NCBI RefSeq assembly: GCF_002954265.1
Contig: NZ_PPSL01000002.1
Span: 372,001 to 436,000, forward strand
Length of the DNA stretch: 64,000 nucleotides
Direction of reading: 5' to 3'
Origin: Flavipsychrobacter stenotrophus
Lineage (GTDB): Bacteria; Bacteroidota; Bacteroidia; Chitinophagales; Chitinophagaceae
The position numbers were made by a program, and so were the translations under genes. This document shows positions 10,332 through 63,648 of the stretch, piece after piece (position 1 is the stretch's first letter; each line of letters opens with the position of its first letter). The notes under the pieces were generated by a model. The model searched no databases. It was not told the DNA's origin and saw only the letters and a list, made by a program, of their open reading frames with translations.

Positions 10332-10919
10332 TCAATCCTCAAAACCCAGGTTTTCGGGCAGGCGTTTTTGGGAGGTGTCGCACATGACATCAGTAACAAC
10401 GATGGTTGACGGACCAACTTCTTCGAAGTTGATATCATCGAACCATACCTGGCCGGGGCCGTGAAGCAAGGCGCCAAAAGTGATCTTAGATGCGTTCAAT
10501 GGTACGTCCAGCTCTATAGCGTATTGTGTCCAGTTCGTATTGTTCTTGATCGGGCGATCGTGCATGTTATCGAATGATATTGGCTCTTTACTGCCCTCTT
10601 TATCTACCCTGAGGTAGAAGCCCGCCCATGCTGTTACTCCACGCGACTTCATGTAGCCGGTCATTTTTATCCTTTTCCCTAAATAGTTTTGAGACGATAT
10701 AGTTTGTATGAGTGAAGCGTATTCGTCTCCGAAGTATTCTTTTTTGCTCGCGCGTATAACGCCACAGGCCTTGCCTTCGTGGCCGTTGATCTTGAAAAGT
10801 CCCAGCTCATATTTGTCGGGGGCAGAGCCAGATATACGCCATCCTTTAGGGATGAGGAAGGAGCATAAAAATACTATTATGCCTATAAATAGTAGATTAG
10901 CGGGTAGGCTGTTTTTCAT
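10332..10919 (-). CDS. Membrane-anchored beta-sandwich (CBM-like) protein
   Basis: 195 aa. One N-terminal hydrophobic segment (~8-24) that looks like an anchor or signal. The rest is rich in beta strands and ends in WTQYAIELDVP, FGALLHGPG and VWFDDINFEEV, a pattern seen in jelly-roll carbohydrate-binding-like domains. Its place next to glycosyltransferase genes fits a cell-envelope glycan role, but this is inference. No family name can be assigned with certainty. Confidence 0.6.
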   Translation of the reverse strand: MKNSLPANLLFIGIIVFLCSFLIPKGWRISGSAPDKYELGLFKINGHEGKACGVIRASKKEYFGDEYASLIQTISSQNYLGKRIKMTGYMKSRGVTAWAGFYLRVDKEGSKEPISFDNMHDRPIKNNTNWTQYAIELDVPLNASKITFGALLHGPGQVWFDDINFEEVGPSTIVVTDVMCDTSQKRLPENLGFED

Positions 10920-21876: not shown

Positions 21877-22025
21877 GTGGAGCCGCAAGATCTTGCGTCT
21901 CTACGTACGCTAATAATCTGGTGACTGAAAACGACTTCTGTGGAGACGCATAATTACGTTGCTACGTACTTAATGCACTGGTGTCCGAAAACAACTGCTG
22001 TGGAGACGCAATTATGCGTCTCTAC
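21877..22025. repeat. Three-unit REP palindrome array
   Basis: Palindromes starting at 21877, 21940 and 22000 (GTGGAG...CGCAAG, GTGGAGACGCATAA, GTGGAGACGCAATT), each with a downstream arm ending CTAC (or GCTAC). The 60-63 bp period includes a partly conserved spacer CTGGTG...GAAAACRACT. It lies between convergent genes and overlaps the ccmF stop. Confidence 0.8.
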
Positions 22026-26286: not shown

Positions 26287-26312
26287 GTGGAGACGCAATT
26301 ATGCGTCTCTAC
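26287..26312. repeat. REP palindrome (GTGGAGACGC type)
   Basis: Near-perfect palindrome starting GTGGAGACGC and ending GCGTCTCTAC. It sits between convergent genes, 47 bp after the upstream stop. Confidence 0.8.
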
Positions 26313-35223: not shown

Positions 35224-35323
35224 GCTTATTGTATAAATGACAAAACAAACCTAATACAAAAATATTTGAGAACAACGAACTACATTGAAAACCATATCTA
35301 TTTAGCTAAGATAATCAGCAGCT

Positions 35324-36613
35324 CTACTCAGGCAGAGCAGCCGCCATCACTTCCATTTTACTGCCCCGCGAGCCTTTGATCAATATAGAACTGTTGACCG
35401 GAGGATGTTGCGCCACATACGCAGCAGCGTCTGTGGAGTTTTCAAACCACATATGGGCGCTCTTTACAGTAGCAAACTCCTTACCCACCAGTATTACGCC
35501 TGCCCACTCATACTTGTCTATCAGTGCTACCAATTCTGCATGTTCGTGCTGCTCTTCTGTACCCATTTCCCGCATACCGCCTATCCATAACATTTTACCC
35601 GGCAGATCTGCTTTCGCAAAATTTTCCATTGCGGCTTTCATACTGGTGGGGTTAGCATTATAGGCATCTAGTATCACCTGGTTATTGCCCTTTTTCAGCC
35701 ATTGAGAACGGCTGTTGTCGGGATTATAAGCAGCGAGCGCTGCTTGTATTTCCTGCAGACTTACACCAAAATGCTCGCCTGCAGCTACCGCCAACAGTAC
35801 ATTAGGGAAATTATATTCGCCAACAAGGTGAGTAGTTAAGGTCACCGGCTCATCATCGGTATCTACCTCTACATTCAGGAATACCCCGTTCATTACCGGC
35901 CTGCCTGTATAGCCCGCCGGGTGAGATCCATAAGTTATCTGCTCACTAATGCCGTCAGCCATTGGTTCCAGGTATTCAAGATCAGTATTCAGAAAAATGG
36001 TCCCGCCTGTTTCACGGATAAAATCATACAACTCACCCTTTCCTTTCCTTACTCCTTCTATGCCGCCAAAGCCTTCTATATGGGCCTTACCACAATTAGT
36101 GATCACGCCATAATCGGGCAGTGCTATTTCGCAATAAGATGCTATCTCTTTTTGGTGGTTGGCCCCCATTTCTATAATGGCCATCTGCGCATCCTTCTTT
36201 ATCTTAAGAATGGTAAGCGGCACACCTATATGATTGTTCAGGTTGCCCTCAGTAGCGTAGGTAATATATTTACGGCTCAATACTACTGCCAGCAACTCTT
36301 TGGTAGTTGTTTTGCCATTAGAGCCTGTAATAGCTATAAAGGGGATATCCATTTGCTGCCTGTGGTACTTAGCCAGCTGCTGCAGCGTTTGCAGCGTATT
36401 ATCGACAACTATACACTTGTCACCCACCGCAAATGCTGCATTGTCAATAACAGCATATGCCGCACCTTTTTGCAGTGCTTCGGCAGCAAATGTATTGCCA
36501 TCAAAATTAGGCCCGCTCAAGGCGAAGTAAATATCTCCCTGCTTTATCTTCCGGGTATCTGTCTGTACAGAAGGATACCTGAGATAGCGTTCATACAATT
36601 CCTTTATTTCCAC
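35324..36613 (-). CDS. murF: UDP-MurNAc-tripeptide D-Ala-D-Ala ligase
   Basis: 429 aa Mur ligase. It adds D-Ala-D-Ala to the peptidoglycan precursor, using ATP. P-loop AITGSNGKTTTKELLA, the QMAIIEMGANHQKEIA strand, NCGKAHIEGFGG, LDAYNANPTSMKAAM. N-terminal part has KIKQGDIYFAL. Usual length for Bacteroidota (about 430). Its promoter region is bounded by the gldJ terminator upstream. Confidence 0.95.
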   Translation of the reverse strand: MEIKELYERYLRYPSVQTDTRKIKQGDIYFALSGPNFDGNTFAAEALQKGAAYAVIDNAAFAVGDKCIVVDNTLQTLQQLAKYHRQQMDIPFIAITGSNGKTTTKELLAVVLSRKYITYATEGNLNNHIGVPLTILKIKKDAQMAIIEMGANHQKEIASYCEIALPDYGVITNCGKAHIEGFGGIEGVRKGKGELYDFIRETGGTIFLNTDLEYLEPMADGISEQITYGSHPAGYTGRPVMNGVFLNVEVDTDDEPVTLTTHLVGEYNFPNVLLAVAAGEHFGVSLQEIQAALAAYNPDNSRSQWLKKGNNQVILDAYNANPTSMKAAMENFAKADLPGKMLWIGGMREMGTEEQHEHAELVALIDKYEWAGVILVGKEFATVKSAHMWFENSTDAAAYVAQHPPVNSSILIKGSRGSKMEVMAAALPE

Positions 36614-42410: not shown

Positions 42411-43586
42411 ATGGCAAAACATTTTGCAATTGCAAGCTTAACACTATTAGCCGGTCTTGTGTCTTTTAATGGCCGGGCCCAGAATGTAAACGGTACCCAG
42501 AACTTTGTTACTACAGCAGTTCCCTTTCTGAGAATTACCCCCGATGCCCGTGCAGGTGCCATGGGAGATGCTGGTATTGCTACCACACCAGATGCAAACG
42601 CACAATACTGGAACGTTGCTAAACTGGCCTTTTCTGAGAAGAATTATGGTATCTCTGCTACATATACTCCATGGTTGAAGGACCTCGTTCCGGATATCTT
42701 CCTGGCTTATATTTCCGGCTATGCCAAAATAGGCAAGGATAATAACCAGACAATCAGCGCATCTATGCGTTATTTCTCTTTGGGTAATATCAACTACACT
42801 ACCAATACGGGCGACCCTAATGGTACAGGTCAGCCACGTGAGTATTCTTTCGATGTTGGCTATTCACGTAAGTTGTCTGAAAATTTCTCTACAGGTGTAA
42901 GCCTCAGGTATATCCACTCTGCTATCGCATCGGGCGTAAGCTACCTTGCGGGTAACAACTACAAGCCGGGTAATGCATTGTCTGCCGACGCAGGTGTATT
43001 CTACACTAAGAGGAAAGAAAAAGATGATATCCATGTCAACACCCTTAACCTGGGTGCGGTAGTAAGTAACCTTGGTTCTAAGATATCTTACAACTCCAGC
43101 AGAAAGGATTTCATACCAATGAACCTTGGCCTGGGTGTAGCGTATACTACTCAGTTCGACCAGTATAACAAGATGACTTTTGCCTTTGACGTAAACAAAC
43201 TACTGGTACCAGCGCTGAATAGCTCAGATACACAGGTAGGTATCATCAGCGGTGTGTTTTCGTCATTCGGTGGTGGCAACCAATTGCAGAAGCTAGATCT
43301 TTCTTTGGGACTTGAATATTGGTACCAGGATCAGTTCGCTGTGCGTGCAGGTTACTTCTACGAAGACAAGAGCAATGGTGACCGTCAGTATATAACTGCA
43401 GGACTGGGTGTTAAGTACAATGTATTCCAGATCAATGCGGCATACATCGTTCCGCAGGGCAGCGGTACTACCCGCAACCCATTGTCTAACACAGTACGTT
43501 TCTCATTGCTGTTCGAATTCGACAAGATCAACAAAGCCGCTGCAGACGATGCACCAGCTGATGTTGCTCCACCGGCAGCCAACTAA
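42411..43586 (+). CDS. porV: T9SS outer-membrane protein PorV
   Basis: 391 aa FadL-like outer-membrane barrel. PorV works with PorU as the shuttle that takes T9SS cargo from the translocon to the attachment complex. Signal peptide to ~24 (RAQ). LRITPDARAGAMGDAGIATT and the PDANAQYWNVAKLAF block are typical for the PorV family, as is the final barrel segment NTVRFSLLFEFD. It is followed by a very strong terminator. Confidence 0.95.
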   Translation: MAKHFAIASLTLLAGLVSFNGRAQNVNGTQNFVTTAVPFLRITPDARAGAMGDAGIATTPDANAQYWNVAKLAFSEKNYGISATYTPWLKDLVPDIFLAYISGYAKIGKDNNQTISASMRYFSLGNINYTTNTGDPNGTGQPREYSFDVGYSRKLSENFSTGVSLRYIHSAIASGVSYLAGNNYKPGNALSADAGVFYTKRKEKDDIHVNTLNLGAVVSNLGSKISYNSSRKDFIPMNLGLGVAYTTQFDQYNKMTFAFDVNKLLVPALNSSDTQVGIISGVFSSFGGGNQLQKLDLSLGLEYWYQDQFAVRAGYFYEDKSNGDRQYITAGLGVKYNVFQINAAYIVPQGSGTTRNPLSNTVRFSLLFEFDKINKAAADDAPADVAPPAAN

Positions 43587-43710: not shown

Positions 43711-43736
43711 GGAGACGCAAAATCTTGCATCTCTAC
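43711..43736. repeat. REP palindrome, left of RAYT gene
   Basis: GGAGACGCAAAATCTTGC..CTCTAC palindrome 16 bp from the RAYT stop. It shares its flank (GCCGCTT before, GAAC after) with the copy at 63449-63474. Confidence 0.8.
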
Positions 43737-43752
43737 GAACCGCCATTGGCAA

Positions 43753-44268
43753 TTATTTTCTATAAAATTTATCTTCCTGCCATCTTTGTGGATTAGTGAT
43801 AATGTAGTTCCTTATTTTCAGATATTCCTCTTCATTGAGAATTATGTGATCATGAAAACGAGGTTGCCATTTAAACACAATATTGTTTTCATTGGCATAA
43901 TTCGTTACTCCAATTTTATAACCCAGCATGATTGACCCAAGATTTTTCGACTGCGGACCAAAACTACTTCCTGATTGCTCCTTTTGGTTGTCAAATGTTC
44001 TATTTATCCCAATAATTCCGTGTACATGATTGGGCATGACTGTGAATACATCCACGTCAACAAATGGAAAATGTTGCGGGATCGCCAGCCAACAATCATT
44101 TGCGACAATGCCTAAGGGCGACCAATGGATTTTTTCGTTGGTGATCGACCCAAAATACTGTTCCTTGTTAAAGGTACATAGAGTGACAAAATATGCCGCA
44201 CTGCTGCTATAATCCCATGATCTCAGCCTGGTAGATTCTACTCGATATTTATTGTAAAACAGAGACAC
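43753..44268 (-). CDS. REP-associated tyrosine transposase (RAYT, IS200-like)
   Basis: 171 aa, Y1/HUH single-strand DNA nuclease family. HUH motif His81-Val-His83 in VMPNHVHGIIG. N-terminal AYFVTLCTFNKEQYFG and C-terminal WQPRFHDHIILNEEEYL and RNYIITNPQRW are typical of RAYT proteins. The catalytic Tyr is not assigned with certainty: Tyr117, Tyr124 and Tyr155 are candidates, and the usual YY pair before DHII is replaced by RFHDHII. Flanked on both sides by GTRG-type palindromes, which is the known setting of RAYT genes (REPtrons). It likely handles palindromes of this type in the genome. Confidence 0.9.
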   Translation of the reverse strand: MSLFYNKYRVESTRLRSWDYSSSAAYFVTLCTFNKEQYFGSITNEKIHWSPLGIVANDCWLAIPQHFPFVDVDVFTVMPNHVHGIIGINRTFDNQKEQSGSSFGPQSKNLGSIMLGYKIGVTNYANENNIVFKWQPRFHDHIILNEEEYLKIRNYIITNPQRWQEDKFYRK

Positions 44269-44382
44269 TATAACTATTATTAGTACTGGATCGTAATATA
44301 CTTATTCTTGCAAAAAATACAGATAATTATGAAGAAGGCTCTTAGTCAGGCCAGCAGGTGGTAATTCAAAGATTACACGTAG

Positions 44383-44407
44383 GTAGAGACGCAAGATTTT
44401 GCGTCTC
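44383..44407. repeat. REP palindrome, right of RAYT, unit 1
   Basis: Starts GTAGAGACGCAAG, ends TTTTGCGTCTC. The GTAG foot matches the GTRG tetranucleotide recognised by RAYT proteins in known systems. Confidence 0.82.
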
Positions 44408-44449
44408 CCCAGTGGCTGGGTGCGATGCGTAAACTCCGGTCGTGTCGCC

Positions 44450-44477
44450 GTAGAGACGCAAAATTTTGCGTCTCTAC
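44450..44477. repeat. REP palindrome, right of RAYT, unit 2
   Basis: Perfect palindrome from GTAGAGACGC to GCGTCTCTAC, 67 bp start-to-start from unit 1, in a BIME-like pair. Its end lies 13 bp downstream of the stop of the giant gene at 44490 and could act as its terminator. Confidence 0.85.
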
Positions 44478-44489
44478 CTACTGTTATTG

Positions 44490-47400
44490 TTACTCACCCA
44501 CCACAACCCTTTCCGTCACCTTACCGCTGGCAGTTATCGCGGATATCATGTAGGTGCCGGCGGCTACATTCATTTGCACCTGTTCCTTTCTATTCGTCAT
44601 TGTATTCCATTCCTTAACCACCCTTCCTAAAAGATCAGTTACAACCATGTGAACAGGCTCCGTTTCAGAAGAGGAAAGTTGCAGCATAAATGACCCGTTA
44701 TTAGGATTGGGTACAATGCTCATATTACATTGGATAGCACCAACATTAGCTACCGCAACTGCTCCATTGTAATAGGTCTTCTGCATACAACCATTGCGGG
44801 TGGTAATGACCCAATAATACTTACCTGCAAGGTCCGGCGCAGGATTATAATAATTCTGATTGGTCTCACCTGATAATAATGTAGAATCAAGTGTGATCAC
44901 ATCATCATAACCCCACTGGTAGGTATCTTCATCAGAAGGGGCACATACAAATTGGTGATCGAAATAGATAACAGAAGGCAGATCAGATATACCACCATCA
45001 ACCAGCACCGCAAAAGAATCTCGCTGTGCACAACCCGATGACAGCATGGTAGCGGTTAGGTATATCCAGCCAATACCTGGGGTAGAGAAACTAACTAAAC
45101 TATTTCTACCACCTGCACCGGTAGCCCATATAGCAGCCGGGCTTGTAGCCGTCCAGGTATAATGCTCTCCGGCATAAACCGTATCCAGTGTTCCGAAGTT
45201 TTGGTACAGCGTATTCAAACACACCACTGGCGGGCTCTTAATGTCTATATGCGGCATGTGTGCGCCCGGGCTGAGTATCACATCCAACTGCTGCACGTTA
45301 GCGCAGCCATTGGCAGTGATCGTGAATACATACACCACCATCACATTGCTATCGGTGGTATTGACCACACTATCATGAATGGCACCTGTACCCAATGAAC
45401 TTGGCGGAGTAATGCCTGTCACAGCAGCTCTTGTCCAGCTATAGGCTGCACCTGGTGTTGCACTCAAAGGCACATAATCAAATACAGTTCCACCACACAA
45501 CGAAGCAGCTAGTGAACTGGTAAGCCTTGGCGTAGGATTAACCCTTACTACAACATGCTGCGTATCCGCGCAACCATTGGCAACAAGAGCCACAGTATAG
45601 GTTACAATTACGGGCAGTGCAGTAGTATTATCCAACACTTCTGAGATCAAGCCTACGCCGCCGCCCGCGCTACTGGCAATACCCGGTGTCAGATCCCTGC
45701 TCCAGACAAACGACGCACCAAGCGTTACAGTAGAAGGAAGATAGGTAAACACCGTGCTATCACAAATAGCAGCAGGCGTTAATGTGCTCGTGAGCACAGG
45801 AGCTGTATTAACTGTAACAATATGATGCGCAGAGAGCACATTGCAACCAAGGCTTACTGTGTAACTGATAACCACTGTACCTGCTGAAATACCCGTCACT
45901 ACACCACCGCTTGTTACAAATGCAATACCTGTGTTACTGCTGCTCCAGGTTCCGCCATTGACTGTATCAGCCAATACTATAGATGCCCCGCGACAAACCG
46001 CTGACGGACCCGTAATGATACCTGTATCAGGCAGCGCATCTACTATAACTATGTGTATTGCCGCAACACTACCGCAGGCATTGGTAACCGTATAAGAGAT
46101 GGTATCTGTACCCGGACTTATTGTACTAACAAATCCTGCAGCCGATACCGTTGCCGCGCCATTACTTGCCGACCACACCCCACCCGAAGCAGTAGCAGTA
46201 AGAGAGACTGTACTGGCCAGACATAGATGGGTTGGTCCGCTTATTGTACCTGCAAGCGGCAATGGATTAACTGTAATTGAAGTAGAAGTTGTAGCCGTAC
46301 CACATACGCTTGTAGCGGCATAAGATATAGTAACCACCCCACCCGATATGCCGGTAACAACACCCGCAGTATCTACAGTTGCTATAGAAACGCTATCTGA
46401 CGTCCATACACCACCGGTAACGGTATTGGCGAGTGTTATAACCTGTCCCTGGCAAACTGTATTGACTCCTGATATAGTATCTACGTACGGTGAATTATTA
46501 ACAACGATATTTTTAGTAGCTACTGCTGATCCGCAGATATTTGTTGTGGTATATAGTATTGTATCAGCTCCGTTAGCCACTCCCGTAACTATACCACCCG
46601 ATACTGTTGCACTGGCATTTGTAGCGCTCCATACGCCACCAGCTACTGCATTAGTTAATGTAAGTACAGTACCTACACAAACACTGGACAGCCCATTGAT
46701 CACACCCGCTGGTGGCAGCGTATCTATGACCACAACATGAGTTGCAGATACCGAGCCGCAGATATTTGAAATAGTGTAGGTGATCGTATCAACTCCCTGT
46801 GTGGCACCAGTAACTATACCGCCAATAACAGTAGCATGAGCATTTGATGCTGTCCATGTACCACCACTAACACTATCGGTCAAGGTAATAGACTGTCCAG
46901 CACATACCGAACCTGGGCCTGTGATAAGACTTACCGACGGAGACAAATTAACGGTCATCACCCTACTTACTACATCACTACCACAACCATTAGTAACTGT
47001 ATAATTGATCGTATCAATACCCGGGTTTATACCTGACACAACACCCGACACGACAGTAGCTGAGCCATTAGTTGCCGCCCATACTCCACCAGTAGCAGAT
47101 GGCACCAACGTAGTCTGCGCTCCCGTACATACCGACGTAGCGCCTGTAAGCGTACCCGCATGTGGCAAAGGATTTACCGTTATCATTTGCGTATCGGTAG
47201 CAGTACCGCAGCCATTGGTTACAGAATAAGAAATAACCACATTACCCGCTACCACACCACCAACGACACCGCCACTCACTGTTGCTACAGCAGCATTACC
47301 CGACGCCCATGAGCCGGATGCTACCGTGCTCGTCAATGTTATCAATGAACCTTCACAAACACTCACTGGGCCGGAAACAACACCCGCATTAGGAGAAAGA

Positions 47401-50400
47401 TCTACCTGCACCAGCTGTGTGTCCACATCTGTACCGCAACTGTTGGTAATAGAGTAAGAGATAATAGCTATTCCAACTGTAGCACCATGCACCACTCCCG
47501 CCGCCACACTCGCAACCGTTGGGTCGCTGGAAGTCCACGTGCCACCCGTTGTTAGATTCGCAAGCGTAAGATTCACCCCGGTACACACTAAATGCCCACC
47601 GGTAATAATACCCGCATGTGCCAATGGATTTACCGTAATCATCTGCGTATCAACAGCAGTACCACAGCTATTCACTACGCTATAAGATATGATTACATTG
47701 CCCGCTGCCACTCCATAAACAACACCACCGCTTACAGTTGCGGTTGCATTGTTAGCAGATATCCAGCTACCGGTTGTAGCCGTATTATTTAACGTGATCA
47801 CCGAGCCTTCGCACACCACTCGTGTTGGCCCTGTGATCGAGCCGGCATCAGGAGACAGATTCACATTCACCAATTGCGTATCCACGGCTGTACCGCAGCT
47901 GTTAGTTACAGAATAAGATATGATAGCAACACCCGGTGTAGCACCATGAACCACACCTCCTGTCACACTGGCTATTGCCGGTGCATCACTGGTCCAGGTG
48001 CCGCCTGTTGTCCCATTCGTCAGTGTTATATTCAATCCCGTACAAACAGTGTGTGCGCCATTAATAGTGCCCGCATTGGGCAATGGCAATACCACTATCA
48101 TTTGAGTATCATATGCAGTGCCGCATGCTGCTGTTGCTGAGTACGAGATGATCACCAAACCTGCACTCACACCTGTCACAACGCCGCCACTATTTATTGT
48201 TGCACCTGCACCACCACTCAACCATGTGCCGGTGCTCACTGTATTATTAAGTGTTATGCTGCTACCCACACAAACAGAAGCCGCTCCACTTATATGCCCC
48301 GCGTCCGGACTCAGTTCAACCGCCACGAGCTGCGTATCTACCGCAGTGCCGCAGCTATTGGTAACAGAATAAGAAATTATTGGCAGCCCCACAGATACAC
48401 CATGCACCACCCCACCAACTACAGTCGCCGATGCATCGCTACTGGTCCATGTGCCGCCACCTGTTGCATTGGTGAGTGTAATGTCAAAGCCGGTACACAC
48501 TCTGTGCAATCCCGTTATATTCCCGGCATTTGGCTGTGGCAATACCACTATATTCTGGGTATCTACCGCCACTCCGCAGGCACCCGTAAAACTATAAGAG
48601 ATCAATGCATTTCCTGCTGCTACTGCAGTCACAACTCCACTATTCGTCACGGTAGCAGTACCTGTTGCACTACTGCTCCATGTACCACCGGCCACACTTG
48701 TTGTCAATGAGATCTGCGTACCTGCACACACAGCAGTTGGTCCACCTATAGTACCGGGCGTTGTAGCCGATATCACTGTTACCATTTGCGTATCTACCTG
48801 CGTTCCACATACTGTGCTCGCTGTATAAGATATTATTGCACTACCACCCACGGCGCCATGTACTACGCCACCTACCACACTGGCTATTGCCGGAGCACTG
48901 CTGCTCCACGCACCACCTGTAGCGGTATTAGTCAGCGTTATGTTAGTACTTACGCACACATCACCTGGCCCGACTATTGTACCTGCATTGGGCTGCGGAT
49001 TAACCACTACCATCTGGGTATCGGTTGCTGTTCCACAACTGTTGGCAACACTATATGATATTATCACATTACTTGCAGCTACGCCGGTTACCACACCGCC
49101 GCTCACAGTTGCTCTTGCAGTATTACTACTTATCCACGTACCGCCACTTGCCGGGTCAGTAAGGGTTATTGTAGTACCTGCACACACTGCAGTAGGCCCT
49201 GTAATAGTTCCTGCGTTAGGCGTCGCATCGATAGTTAACAGCAAAGTATCTGTTGCCGTACCACAGCCATTGGTTGATGTTACAGAATAAGAGATAATGG
49301 CCACTCCCACACTTGCACCACCAGCAGTTCCGCCGGCGTTTATAGTAGCGACGCTCGTATTACTACTGCTCCATGTTCCCGGTCCGACGGTATTAGAATA
49401 AGGTGCGCCGGTAACCGTGCCATTACACAAACTCGTAGGCCCTGTTGTCAGGCCCACAACAGGCAACGGAAACACCCGCACCATTTGTGTATCACTTAAA
49501 GAGCCGCAGCTATTCGTTACCGTATAAGAAATGATGGTTGTGCCTATACTTGCCCCACCTACTACACCACCGCTCACTGTTGCCACTGCGGGCACAGAGC
49601 TGCTCCACACACCGCCCGATGTAGTATCCGTCAGTGTAATGGAAGAACCTGCACATACCGTATTGACAGTACCTGTTATTGTTCCCGTCACGGGCGCCAC
49701 ATTCACTATAAACGGAACAGTAGCAGCTGCACTACCGCAGCCATTGGTCAACGTATAGCTGATAATAGTGCTGCCCACAAGGGCCACACTCGTCACCATC
49801 CCAACTCCGTTTACCGTAGCTATCCAAGTATTATTAGATGACCATACACCGCCTGTAGCAGTATCAGCCAGCGTTGTTGTTTGCCCTGCACCGCATACAG
49901 CTGCGGTACCTGTTATTACCCCTGCAGATGGTGTGGTCTTCACCGTATCTACTTTTGTTGCGCTGATCAGGCCACAGGTATTGGTAAGTGAGTAGGTAAT
50001 ATTTACGACGCCTGTATGCAGACCATTAACAGTCACGGAAGTTCCGGCTGGGGTTATCGTCGCTATAAACGCATCTCCCGTCGCCCATGTGCCACCGGTC
50101 ATTGTGTTGGTGAGGGTTATAGGCGTTCCTATACACTGGCTTACCGGGCCTGCTATGGCAGGTACTACAATCACCGAATCAAACGTAATAACGAACCTCC
50201 TGCTGCTGGTATCACCCCCAGCTATCTTGTACAATATTACCGTGTCCTTACCCGGCAGGTGTGGTGTCAACATACCTGTAGCAGTATCTATAGAAGCCAA
50301 TGTATTATTGGTCAGGGTCCATACCCCACCAATTGTGCCGCTGGTCAACGTTATGGCCGGAGCCGAAGCACAGATTATATGGGGACCGGATATAGTATCC

Positions 50401-51965
50401 ATTATAGGTAGTGGGTAATCACGGAAAATGGTAATAGTTCCCTGTCTGTTATTTGTTGCCACAATTTCAGGGTATCCATCGCCGTCTAGATCTCCCAGAT
50501 TGACTCCAAGCGGAGTTGTCCCAGTAAGAAAATCTAGTTTAGTCGCTAAAGTGCCGGCTGTGAAAGCCGCGCCTGTAATAGATGTATTTCTGAAAACGGA
50601 TATCCTGCTCGGAGCTGCATCTGCAACAACAATATCGGGCTTGCCATCACCATTTAGGTCTCCTATTGCTATTCCCGCCGGCGATGCAAGTGTCACATAA
50701 GTCACTACAGCTGCAAAAGTTGAAGCGTCTATTACCCCTGGAGTACCAATGTTTCTATATAATCCAACCTGGTTGGAACTTGTAGACGTAACCGCAATAT
50801 CCAATTTACCATCACCATCTATATCTACACTTTGAATATCTGATAATTTCCCTGGTGCAGGCAGTATTATTCTCGGGGCAAAATCAATGATTCCGCCCAC
50901 TGAAATATTCTTCAGTACAGAAACTGTTTCGGAAGAATCATCTGCAACTCCGATATCCGCCAAACCATCACCATCCAGGTCACCTGTGCTAATGCCAATC
51001 GGCAGAACGCCACACTTAAAAGCTCCGATAACATTCAAACTAATGTTGCCTACAGTACTTGTATTCTGAAGTAAGACCACATTTGCGGAATCCCTACAGG
51101 TAACTGCAACATCCACTTTACCGTCTTTGTCAAAATCAGCTATTCCTATTACATAGGGGGCAACACCTGTTGGCGACACCTGAAATTCCACCATCGAAGC
51201 AAAAGTAATGTTGCCGGTTGTAGACGTGTTTCTGTAAACAGCCACCTTTCCCCCTCCTAATTGCGGCAAAACAAGGTCTAACATCCCGTCTCCATCTATA
51301 TCTGCCAATTTCACATTTGCAGGCTGATTACCGCCCGGCAAACTGCCGGAAGGCAAAACAACGCCAACCGGAGAAAAGGATGCATTGCTTATCCAACCAG
51401 GAGTACTTATATTTCTGTAAATGACAAGGTTCCCAAAGTTAGGAGGATCATGTCGGTTTGTCGTCACTAAATCCGGCTTACCATCTCCGTCAAGATCTCC
51501 CAATACTGTTATGTAAGAATACGCAGGATCAGAAAATGAACCAATCGCATTATACCCTACTGTCAACAATGTAGTATTTCTTATATTTATCGTATCCTGG
51601 TAAAAATAAGAGCTGTTAAAGGTTGGTAAATATTTGTCAACCTGATAACCCGTGAGATGATTTGTAGTATTCAACACCGATACAGGCCCAAACACAGCGC
51701 CCGTATCTACCGTTACTGTAAGTTGTGTTGCAGTAGCACCAATTACAAATGCCCTTGTAGAGCCAAAATAAACAATATTATTAGCTGGCAGCAGGTCAAA
51801 GCTACTACCCGATATTGTTATAGTAGATCCTGTGGTAGCTATAGATGGAGAAACAGACGTAATAACAGGCGCCTGCCCGTACCCCGGCACAGTGCACAGT
51901 AATATAAAAATAAGACAAGAGTATCTTAAATAAGCAAGAGGGTTATTAAGTAAAAGAGTGTTCAT
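44490..51965 (-). CDS. Giant T9SS-secreted Ig-like repeat protein
   Basis: 2491 aa. Signal peptide (LIFILLCTVPGYGQ), an IPT/TIG domain (~32-105: PVITSVSPSIATTGSTITIS), then seven FG-GAP calcium motifs of the type DLDGDGKPD, which suggest a seven-bladed propeller (~120-520). About 20 Ig-like units of ~75 aa follow (core VCAG-x-ITLT ... GGTW ... GVV.G ... IISYSVTN.CGT), then PKD-like segments and a C-terminal sorting domain (NPNNGSFMLQL ... AAGTYMIS). Likely exported to the surface as adhesin or matrix. Neighbouring 1734-aa gene has the same layout. Confidence 0.9.
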   Translation of the reverse strand: MNTLLLNNPLAYLRYSCLIFILLCTVPGYGQAPVITSVSPSIATTGSTITISGSSFDLLPANNIVYFGSTRAFVIGATATQLTVTVDTGAVFGPVSVLNTTNHLTGYQVDKYLPTFNSSYFYQDTINIRNTTLLTVGYNAIGSFSDPAYSYITVLGDLDGDGKPDLVTTNRHDPPNFGNLVIYRNISTPGWISNASFSPVGVVLPSGSLPGGNQPANVKLADIDGDGMLDLVLPQLGGGKVAVYRNTSTTGNITFASMVEFQVSPTGVAPYVIGIADFDKDGKVDVAVTCRDSANVVLLQNTSTVGNISLNVIGAFKCGVLPIGISTGDLDGDGLADIGVADDSSETVSVLKNISVGGIIDFAPRIILPAPGKLSDIQSVDIDGDGKLDIAVTSTSSNQVGLYRNIGTPGVIDASTFAAVVTYVTLASPAGIAIGDLNGDGKPDIVVADAAPSRISVFRNTSITGAAFTAGTLATKLDFLTGTTPLGVNLGDLDGDGYPEIVATNNRQGTITIFRDYPLPIMDTISGPHIICASAPAITLTSGTIGGVWTLTNNTLASIDTATGMLTPHLPGKDTVILYKIAGGDTSSRRFVITFDSVIVVPAIAGPVSQCIGTPITLTNTMTGGTWATGDAFIATITPAGTSVTVNGLHTGVVNITYSLTNTCGLISATKVDTVKTTPSAGVITGTAAVCGAGQTTTLADTATGGVWSSNNTWIATVNGVGMVTSVALVGSTIISYTLTNGCGSAAATVPFIVNVAPVTGTITGTVNTVCAGSSITLTDTTSGGVWSSSVPAVATVSGGVVGGASIGTTIISYTVTNSCGSLSDTQMVRVFPLPVVGLTTGPTSLCNGTVTGAPYSNTVGPGTWSSSNTSVATINAGGTAGGASVGVAIISYSVTSTNGCGTATDTLLLTIDATPNAGTITGPTAVCAGTTITLTDPASGGTWISSNTARATVSGGVVTGVAASNVIISYSVANSCGTATDTQMVVVNPQPNAGTIVGPGDVCVSTNITLTNTATGGAWSSSAPAIASVVGGVVHGAVGGSAIISYTASTVCGTQVDTQMVTVISATTPGTIGGPTAVCAGTQISLTTSVAGGTWSSSATGTATVTNSGVVTAVAAGNALISYSFTGACGVAVDTQNIVVLPQPNAGNITGLHRVCTGFDITLTNATGGGTWTSSDASATVVGGVVHGVSVGLPIISYSVTNSCGTAVDTQLVAVELSPDAGHISGAASVCVGSSITLNNTVSTGTWLSGGAGATINSGGVVTGVSAGLVIISYSATAACGTAYDTQMIVVLPLPNAGTINGAHTVCTGLNITLTNGTTGGTWTSDAPAIASVTGGVVHGATPGVAIISYSVTNSCGTAVDTQLVNVNLSPDAGSITGPTRVVCEGSVITLNNTATTGSWISANNATATVSGGVVYGVAAGNVIISYSVVNSCGTAVDTQMITVNPLAHAGIITGGHLVCTGVNLTLANLTTGGTWTSSDPTVASVAAGVVHGATVGIAIISYSITNSCGTDVDTQLVQVDLSPNAGVVSGPVSVCEGSLITLTSTVASGSWASGNAAVATVSGGVVGGVVAGNVVISYSVTNGCGTATDTQMITVNPLPHAGTLTGATSVCTGAQTTLVPSATGGVWAATNGSATVVSGVVSGINPGIDTINYTVTNGCGSDVVSRVMTVNLSPSVSLITGPGSVCAGQSITLTDSVSGGTWTASNAHATVIGGIVTGATQGVDTITYTISNICGSVSATHVVVIDTLPPAGVINGLSSVCVGTVLTLTNAVAGGVWSATNASATVSGGIVTGVANGADTILYTTTNICGSAVATKNIVVNNSPYVDTISGVNTVCQGQVITLANTVTGGVWTSDSVSIATVDTAGVVTGISGGVVTISYAATSVCGTATTSTSITVNPLPLAGTISGPTHLCLASTVSLTATASGGVWSASNGAATVSAAGFVSTISPGTDTISYTVTNACGSVAAIHIVIVDALPDTGIITGPSAVCRGASIVLADTVNGGTWSSSNTGIAFVTSGGVVTGISAGTVVISYTVSLGCNVLSAHHIVTVNTAPVLTSTLTPAAICDSTVFTYLPSTVTLGASFVWSRDLTPGIASSAGGGVGLISEVLDNTTALPVIVTYTVALVANGCADTQHVVVRVNPTPRLTSSLAASLCGGTVFDYVPLSATPGAAYSWTRAAVTGITPPSSLGTGAIHDSVVNTTDSNVMVVYVFTITANGCANVQQLDVILSPGAHMPHIDIKSPPVVCLNTLYQNFGTLDTVYAGEHYTWTATSPAAIWATGAGGRNSLVSFSTPGIGWIYLTATMLSSGCAQRDSFAVLVDGGISDLPSVIYFDHQFVCAPSDEDTYQWGYDDVITLDSTLLSGETNQNYYNPAPDLAGKYYWVITTRNGCMQKTYYNGAVAVANVGAIQCNMSIVPNPNNGSFMLQLSSSETEPVHMVVTDLLGRVVKEWNTMTNRKEQVQMNVAAGTYMISAITASGKVTERVVVGE
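47163..48534 (-). repeat. Dimeric higher-order repeat in the giant gene
   Basis: Ig-like units 9-14 alternate between two subtypes: units 9, 11, 13 share VCTG...VHG...DTQLV...LSPDA, and units 10, 12, 14 share SxITLNN...TGxW...DTQMI. This indicates amplification of a two-unit block of about 455 bp. Confidence 0.75.
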
Positions 51966-63448: not shown

Positions 63449-63474
63449 AAGAGACGCAAAATCTTGCGTCTCTA
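63449..63474. repeat. REP palindrome
   Basis: AAGAGACGCAAAATCTTGCG continuing to TCTCTACGAAC. Shares its GCCGCTT and GAAC flanks with the copy at 43711. The GTAG foot is not kept (TTAA). Confidence 0.75.
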
Positions 63475-63648
63475 CGAACATTCAATTAATTTACATTATC
63501 CTGCATAATGCATCCCATACAATCATAACCAACACAGACCAGCAACCACTGGCACGGTATTTATTGGTTATTCTCTGAGGTAGTGGATTTTTAAGCTACT
63601 GCCTTGAATATTTGCACCAAACAGTTGCTAATAAAAATCAATAACACA

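Follow-up and report, generated by a model that had tools for sequence, protein, structure and literature searches.

A RAYT gene amid a dispersed family of GTAG-footed REPs in Flavipsychrobacter stenotrophus

The 64,000-nucleotide stretch of DNA analysed here (the window) very probably holds a REPtron, that is, a single-strand DNA endonuclease retained by the host (RAYT) amid a family of REPs that it most likely recognises. The locus is clearly a new member of an established class of enzyme-and-repeat pairs (RAYT with REP) and not a new system. A first-pass annotation had proposed a RAYT with its own REPs as probable substrates. This proposal is upheld by the match to NF047646 (below its cut-off), the fold match to 4ER8, the position of the repeats outside ORFs and their enrichment in genomes with this RAYT type, whereas the unusual nucleophile that went with it was not retained.

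The RAYT gene and its predicted protein

The genes of the locus and the REPs of the window are listed below; type 1 REPs have a palindrome of 22 nt and type 2 REPs one of 20 nt.

21880..21904, - strand: REP with symmetric centre and one stem mismatch, oriented from its CTAC end (palindrome 21880-21901)
about 21943-21962: degenerate REP copy, read by eye
22003..22025, - strand: REP of type 2 (palindrome 22003-22022)
26290..26312, - strand: REP of type 2 (palindrome 26290-26309)
42411..43586, + strand: neighbouring gene (391 aa, ORF list), convergent with the RAYT gene
43712..43736, - strand: REP of type 1 with one stem mismatch, downstream of the RAYT gene, GTAG on the - strand
43753..44268, - strand: RAYT (TnpAREP) gene (171 aa, GTG start, ORF list)
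44383..44477, no strand: REPIN-like pair of inverted REPs with GTAG outside, lying between the RAYT and 2491-aa genes
44383..44407, + strand: type 1 REP, forming the left half of the inverted pair that lies upstream of the RAYT gene, its GTAG on the + strand
44453..44477, - strand: right-hand REP of the same pair, with a symmetric centre and a GTAG at either end (double foot)
44490-51965: 2491-aa gene, with the RAYT gene in tandem behind it
63451..63475, - strand: REP of type 1 (palindrome 63451-63472)

The 171-aa HUH/Y1 protein with an HVH motif described in the first-pass annotation corresponds to the ORF at 43753-44268 (-), which carries NHVH and has 4ER8 as its fold match. Palindromes indeed lie on both sides of the gene, one at 43712-43733, 19 bp from the RAYT stop codon, and two upstream of the start (44386-44407 and 44453-44474) within the inverted pair. 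The product of the 391-aa gene is presumably PorV-like. A genome search recovered one copy of the RAYT gene and no second RAYT of the same kind, and PADLOC found 0 families on the sequence. The gene is under purifying selection against one close relative, G298 (41/513 positions differ, dN 0.049, dS 0.248, dN/dS 0.20). Five other Y1_Tnp-type proteins were detected in the genome by Pfam (L001-L005), three as stronger and two as weak matches. One of the stronger three has an inner TGA and L003 has YINSQHEHH, the weak two having NHAH or NHMH with YIHNNP; by these motifs they look like other TnpAY1 subclasses.

The motifs of the window RAYT are NHVH, with H81 and H83, W134-Q135, and YIITNP, with the catalytic tyrosine Y155. 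No match was obtained with this protein in a Pfam search, and the NCBIfam model NF047646 (REP_Tyr_transpos), which matches 15/15 rows of our family alignment A2, scored it below cut-off (E 2.3e-12, 47 bits for a cut-off of 80). Searching the PDB with phmmer gave a weak match to the E. coli TnpAREP structure 4ER8 (E 0.096). Within the aligned stretch, Y155, W134-Q135 and H141 face the same residues of the E. coli enzyme (Y115, W94-Q95 and H101) and D140 faces E100, whereas L144 faces R104. The AlphaFold model (pLDDT 81.2, pTM 0.76) retrieved 4ER8 as the first and best fold match (E 1.3e-6, TM 0.60), followed by the ISDra2 and IS608 transposases. Two features expected of a RAYT (TnpAREP) were found, one on the protein and one on the DNA side: an HUH motif and a single catalytic tyrosine in a predicted HUH-Y1 fold, and GTRG-foot REPs that flank the gene and are dispersed in the genome.

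The first-pass annotation had suspected an unusual nucleophilic tyrosine. This doubt rested on the wrong tyrosine, since the catalytic one lies in YIITNP and not before DHII, and we dropped it: Y155 is invariant across the 15 rows of A2 and aligns with Y115, whose exchange in Y115F gives a catalytic mutant of E. coli TnpAREP (PMC8266576). Judging from the aligned residues, the odd feature of the window RAYT is instead L144 at the presumed foot-reading position, the matching E. coli arginine being one of those associated with contacting GTAG (PMC6006769; PMC8266576). An arginine occupies this position in 91/99 family ORFs, the window's own included among the 99 (85 recognised by motif match and 6 by visual reading of rows without such a match), as it does in the RAYT of G298; the eight others have Lys (3), Gln (2), Thr (1), His (1) and the leucine of the window.

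The REP family of the window and of the genome

A genome-wide count, a consistent orientation and an excess in intergenic DNA, which the first-pass annotation had proposed to look for, were all observed. The pattern GAGACGCN{2,14}GCGTCTC occurs at 50 places per strand in the genome (5.43 Mb, 21 contigs) vs 0 for the reversed pattern. One of the 50 places, C12:320274, was dropped as a terminator-like hairpin with a different centre. Statistics were computed on 55 REP copies, near-copies included and at least four further listed near-copies left out; 34 copies are of type 1 and 21 of type 2. The copies were oriented by their centre, asymmetric in 51 and symmetric in four, the latter being oriented by script default.

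GTAG stands at the 5' end in 51/55 oriented copies, whereas the opposite end has GTGG in 25, GTAG in 6 and other sequences in 24, so that a GTRG foot is present there in 31/55. The earlier statement that most copies have a GTAG or GTGG foot was therefore correct but had missed this asymmetry; one GTAG is kept while the other end drifts, so most copies are no strict double-foot elements. Conservation of the palindrome proves nothing, since the palindrome was the search criterion; the flanks, however, were free, and they delimit a bounded unit. Information content reaches 1.7-2.0 bits at GTA and falls to at most 0.24 beyond 7 bases 5' of the core and at most 0.16 beyond 14 bases 3' of it. The unit shared by type 1 copies, about 44 bp long, reads 5'-GTTC GTAG AGACGCAAGATTTTGCGTCTC CACAGCGGCTGGGC-3'. 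The predicted fold of a type 1 single strand is a 9-bp stem with GTA unpaired beside it. The REP at 43712-43736 is predicted to fold in this way, GTA unpaired (z -2.7, 6/200 shuffles equally good), and the inverted pair at 44383-44477, with a spacing of 67 bp, has a single-strand fold with z -10.4 (0/200 shuffles equally good).

Within the window, a 22-mer search allowing at most 3 mismatches gave 5 matches vs 0 in each of 100 dinucleotide shuffles. The recurrence of the palindrome reported near 21877-22025, 26287 and 63449 was borne out by palindromes at 21880, 22003, 26290 and 63451; a further match at 10691 was set aside as a chance match with a long loop. Seven of the 55 copies fall within the window (21880-63472), the genome average being about 0.65. 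REP density may be higher near the RAYT gene, which is only a hint because the window was picked for its REPs. Another small palindrome, present as GAAGCGAGACGCTTC or in reverse complement, lies at 1407, 11204 and 58180 of the window, with 7 matches in the genome stretches examined; it contains GAGACGC, yet it is no REP of the RAYT-linked family. Other short repeats cluster near REPs (for instance at L030, L036 and L018), ACGAATACGTCC being present 11 times and AAAGTGGCAGTT 17 times in the stretches examined.

The REPs avoid coding DNA: 49/55 copies lie outside ORFs of at least 90 aa, as called by a simple longest-ORF script, although 86% of the window segment is coding by the same limit (52/55 and 84% at a limit of 150 aa). 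The spacers of the 49 are convergent for 23, tandem for 21 and divergent for 4, one copy lying at an edge. Neighbouring copies within 260 bp form eight pairs. The four closest (60, 67, 74 and 75 bp) are inverted with GTAG outside, and the remaining four (101-238 bp) are direct. REPINs are inverted REP pairs a short distance apart. The window genome has such pairs at short spacing, but most of its copies are single, with four close inverted pairs among 55. A literature search with GTAGAGACG returned no bacterial-repeat paper by title among the matches listed, and we found no paper on repetitive extragenic palindromes in Chitinophaga in the open-licence literature.

RAYTs and REPs in related genomes

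We compared 294 genomes of the same family, scoring the RAYT as present when the A2 profile matched with E < 1e-10 (54 genomes, a few with fragments or stops) and counting weaker matches, many of them to other RAYT-like proteins, as absence. The pattern GTAGAGACN{8,16}GTCTC was found at least 10 times, both strands summed, in 16/54 genomes with the RAYT and 7/240 without it (Fisher p 2e-8), and the window's own stem at least 10 times in 8/54 vs 2/240 (p 2.7e-5), these p-values being only a guide since genomes of one family are related. The reversed-pattern control gave at most 1 per strand and genome in one count and at most 2 in the other. Relatives lacking the gene had been named in the first-pass annotation as a comparison that could refute its reading. 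Counts are higher on average with the gene, but seven genomes are exceptions and speak against any strict coupling of gene and repeat. These are G103 and G284 (both 100% complete), G026 (98%), and G262, G074, G090 and G283 (89-92%); the listed matches of G284 form a tandem array. Fewer than 10 palindromes were counted in 38/54 RAYT-bearing genomes, a count that covers this stem only.

The 391-aa neighbour protein is present in 11/11 genomes of the genus, and the DNA downstream of its gene was read in six of the ten returned loci, the motif having missed the other four. In G298 (99% identity, 74% complete) the RAYT occupies the same place with slightly diverged REPs on both sides. G262 (92%) has the same two neighbours separated by a spacer of about 0.3 kb with neither RAYT gene nor REP; elsewhere it holds 19 palindromes, one of them a terminator-like hairpin and most of them type 2 or near type 2, and no such RAYT gene was found in this genome. 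Other neighbours surround the 391-aa gene locus in G296, G166 and G295. In G089, of the same genus (L073, C30), the RAYT loses its frame near the end and continues, in one frame, into a long ORF downstream, and an inverted REP pair adjoins the gene.

REP turnover was followed by script at 61 REP-like places in the examined DNA of the window genome, 29 of which had both flanks placed in G298 (at 18 of them, by recount, each flank reached at least 85% identity). G298 has a REP at 13 of these 18 sites, of the same type in 10 and of the other type in 3. At the remaining 5 the script found none, one site having a degenerate copy, one a REP start at the edge and three seeming REP-less. These counts lean to shared sites, as the G298 DNA was examined only around its own REPs. 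Among the type switches, C12:35408 (L021) is supported by three-genome alignments, with a type 2 REP both in the window genome and in G262 (L221), which is more distant, and a type 1 REP in G298 (L267), where the sequence 5' of GTAG is different, the gene beside it is the same and the 3' tail starts similarly. C11:1014133 aligns well on the left side only, and the orthology of C12:368314 is unsure because of repeat-rich flanks. Between G298 and the window genome we recovered no single REP cleanly inserted into an otherwise empty site; the gap inspected in most detail, L238 against about 35260-35324 of the window, is a complex replacement.

A scan of genome contigs gave at least 560 relatives. 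The best 80 of them, which were kept, belong to Bacteroidota, Chloroflexota, Planctomycetota, Cyanobacteriota, Pseudomonadota and several candidate phyla. Adding the loci from the family genomes brought the total to 110, and 98 of these have an intact ORF with the motifs. By raw count, a GTRG hairpin lies within 1 kb at 89 of these 98 loci, inside the ORF at 63/98 and outside it at 61/98. The REP stem type follows the RAYT tree across the 98 loci. After GTRG, 60 loci have an AGAC stem and 15 a GGGC or GGGT stem; 4 changes on the tree suffice for the GGGC group, vs 14.2 in shuffles, its rows being almost one clade (14 of 15). Hairpin and protein distances are correlated with relatedness left in (Mantel r 0.50, or 0.34 for AGAC alone; 0/2000 permutations as high). 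RAYT-REP coevolution has been reported earlier (PMC2817692; PMC8266576). The residue at the position of E. coli E100 is associated with the first stem base (D with 57 A and 11 G, E with 6 A and 13 G, Fisher p 2.6e-5), but because nearly all GGGC stems fall in a single clade, the association may merely reflect the history of that clade, and we rejected a residue-to-stem code as independent covariation. A CAAnnnnTTG centre was likewise dropped as a marker for the clade to which the window RAYT belongs (16/89 loci, 10 changes on the tree).

The window RAYT fits best with group 4, or TnpAREP subclass 2.4 with 'double foot' REPs, to judge from its near-complete signature, 4ER8 as top fold match and the GTRG hairpin at 89/98 related loci. 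As described in PMC6006769, this subclass has the signature NH[IFV]H, WQ and YIxNNP, is abundant in Cyanobacteria and Bacteroidetes, and has both canonical and 'double foot' REPs, with REP insertions inside the gene that are frequent, not universal. The likeness extends to NHVH, WQ, a tyrosine motif with NP, a host in the Bacteroidetes, and REPs beside the gene with GTAG at one end and a complement-like sequence at the other. The window protein differs in having YIITNP, without the first N of NNP, a distance of 74 between HUH and tyrosine against a published median of 88, and L144 at the foot-contact position. A double-foot REP beside the gene is found at 44453-44477, whereas most genome copies keep one GTAG, and no REP was found inside the window RAYT gene, in contrast to 63/98 related loci. 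The perfect stem of the window-genome REPs contrasts with the bulged stem of E. coli REPs (PMC8266576). The GTAG-tagged REPs and HH pairs (dimers) set out in PMC3733652, whose 'bacteroid' passage concerns CGTC repeats, are similar as far as their description goes: they are short intergenic palindromes with a GTAG end, in close pairs with GTAG outside, few of them in divergent spacers. The in vitro work on TnpAREP in PMC8266576 covers groups 2 and 3, and none on group 4 enzymes was found in the open-licence literature.

Mechanism, rival explanations and meaning

By analogy with the E. coli, S. maltophilia and Marinomonas enzymes, from which all steps after folding are taken, we propose that a single-stranded REP folds and that the RAYT binds the folded REP. 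The enzyme would be guided by the 5' GTAG next to the hairpin, choosing the cut site through this foot; in the published model, GTAG pairs with CT or CA near the hairpin (PMC8266576). Y155, together with H81, H83 and a metal ion, would then attack the strand, cutting near the hairpin and rejoining it afterwards, and single REPs or inverted REP pairs would be spread between genes. Binding, cleavage, guidance by GTAG and mobilisation by the window RAYT are thus put forward as its probable activities. The seven palindrome-rich genomes without a detected RAYT of this kind, the 38/54 RAYT-bearing genomes with fewer than 10 palindromes of this stem, the lost GTAG-contact arginine, the missing Pfam match, the NCBIfam score below cut-off and the lack of a clean single-REP insertion count against the REPtron.

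The same observations could in part be explained by hairpins kept for roles in RNA or DNA (transcript ends, mRNA stability, topology), with a RAYT adjacent by history and inactive on them, L144 being a sign of its decay. We consider this quite unlikely. The dN/dS of 0.20 between the window and G298 genes and the association of RAYT and repeats across genomes of the family both argue against it, as does the retention of GTAG in 51/55 copies despite drift at the opposite end, something that a mere hairpin function would not call for. It would account for the avoidance of divergent spacers (4/55 copies), the persistence of palindromes in genomes without detected RAYT, the leucine at position 144 and the out-of-frame RAYT end in G089. 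A full insertion sequence of the IS200/IS605 type, moving as a unit, is highly improbable: several copies with the same ends were not found but a single one, and the tyrosine motif is YIITNP and not YxENQ (Y[IV]ENQ with several IS copies in subclass 1.1). Position and neighbours of the gene are, moreover, the same in G298, even though the HUH/Tyr fold, its matches to the ISDra2 and IS608 transposases and the hairpins bounding the gene would suit such an element.

A further reading, possible though doubtful, is that only the type 1 REPs belong to the window RAYT and that type 2 (21/55) comes from another, lost RAYT. The REPs adjoining the gene are indeed of type 1 or have the symmetric 22-nt centre, likewise in G298, and the 19 palindromes of G262, where no such RAYT was found, are mostly of type 2 or close to it. 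The two types also differ in the bases preceding GTAG on its 5' side (GTTC in 18/34 of type 1, TCTG in 8/21 of type 2), but the outer stem, GTAG and the kinds of 3' tail are common to both, and the genome has no second RAYT of the same kind.

The type switch at C12:35408 raises the idea that REPs of this family are exchanged in place, the RAYT swapping the GTAG-side cassette of a resident REP. We regard this as unlikely, and ordinary recombination between REPs may explain the switch. If in-place exchange were true and general, it would mean transposase-driven repeat conversion, with the RAYT not only inserting REPs, and the change from arginine to leucine at the GTAG contact would be one of guide reading, not decay.

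The window genome, G298 (gene in place) and G262 (same neighbours, no gene) form a compact natural comparison in which one can ask about the nature of the double-foot REP, the reading of GTAG and the fate of REPs without a RAYT. As the REP stem follows the RAYT tree over 98 loci, the protein-DNA code of the group is testable. The REPtron itself is ordinary in kind; the points worth testing are the leucine at the putative foot-reading position and the one good in-place switch of REP type.
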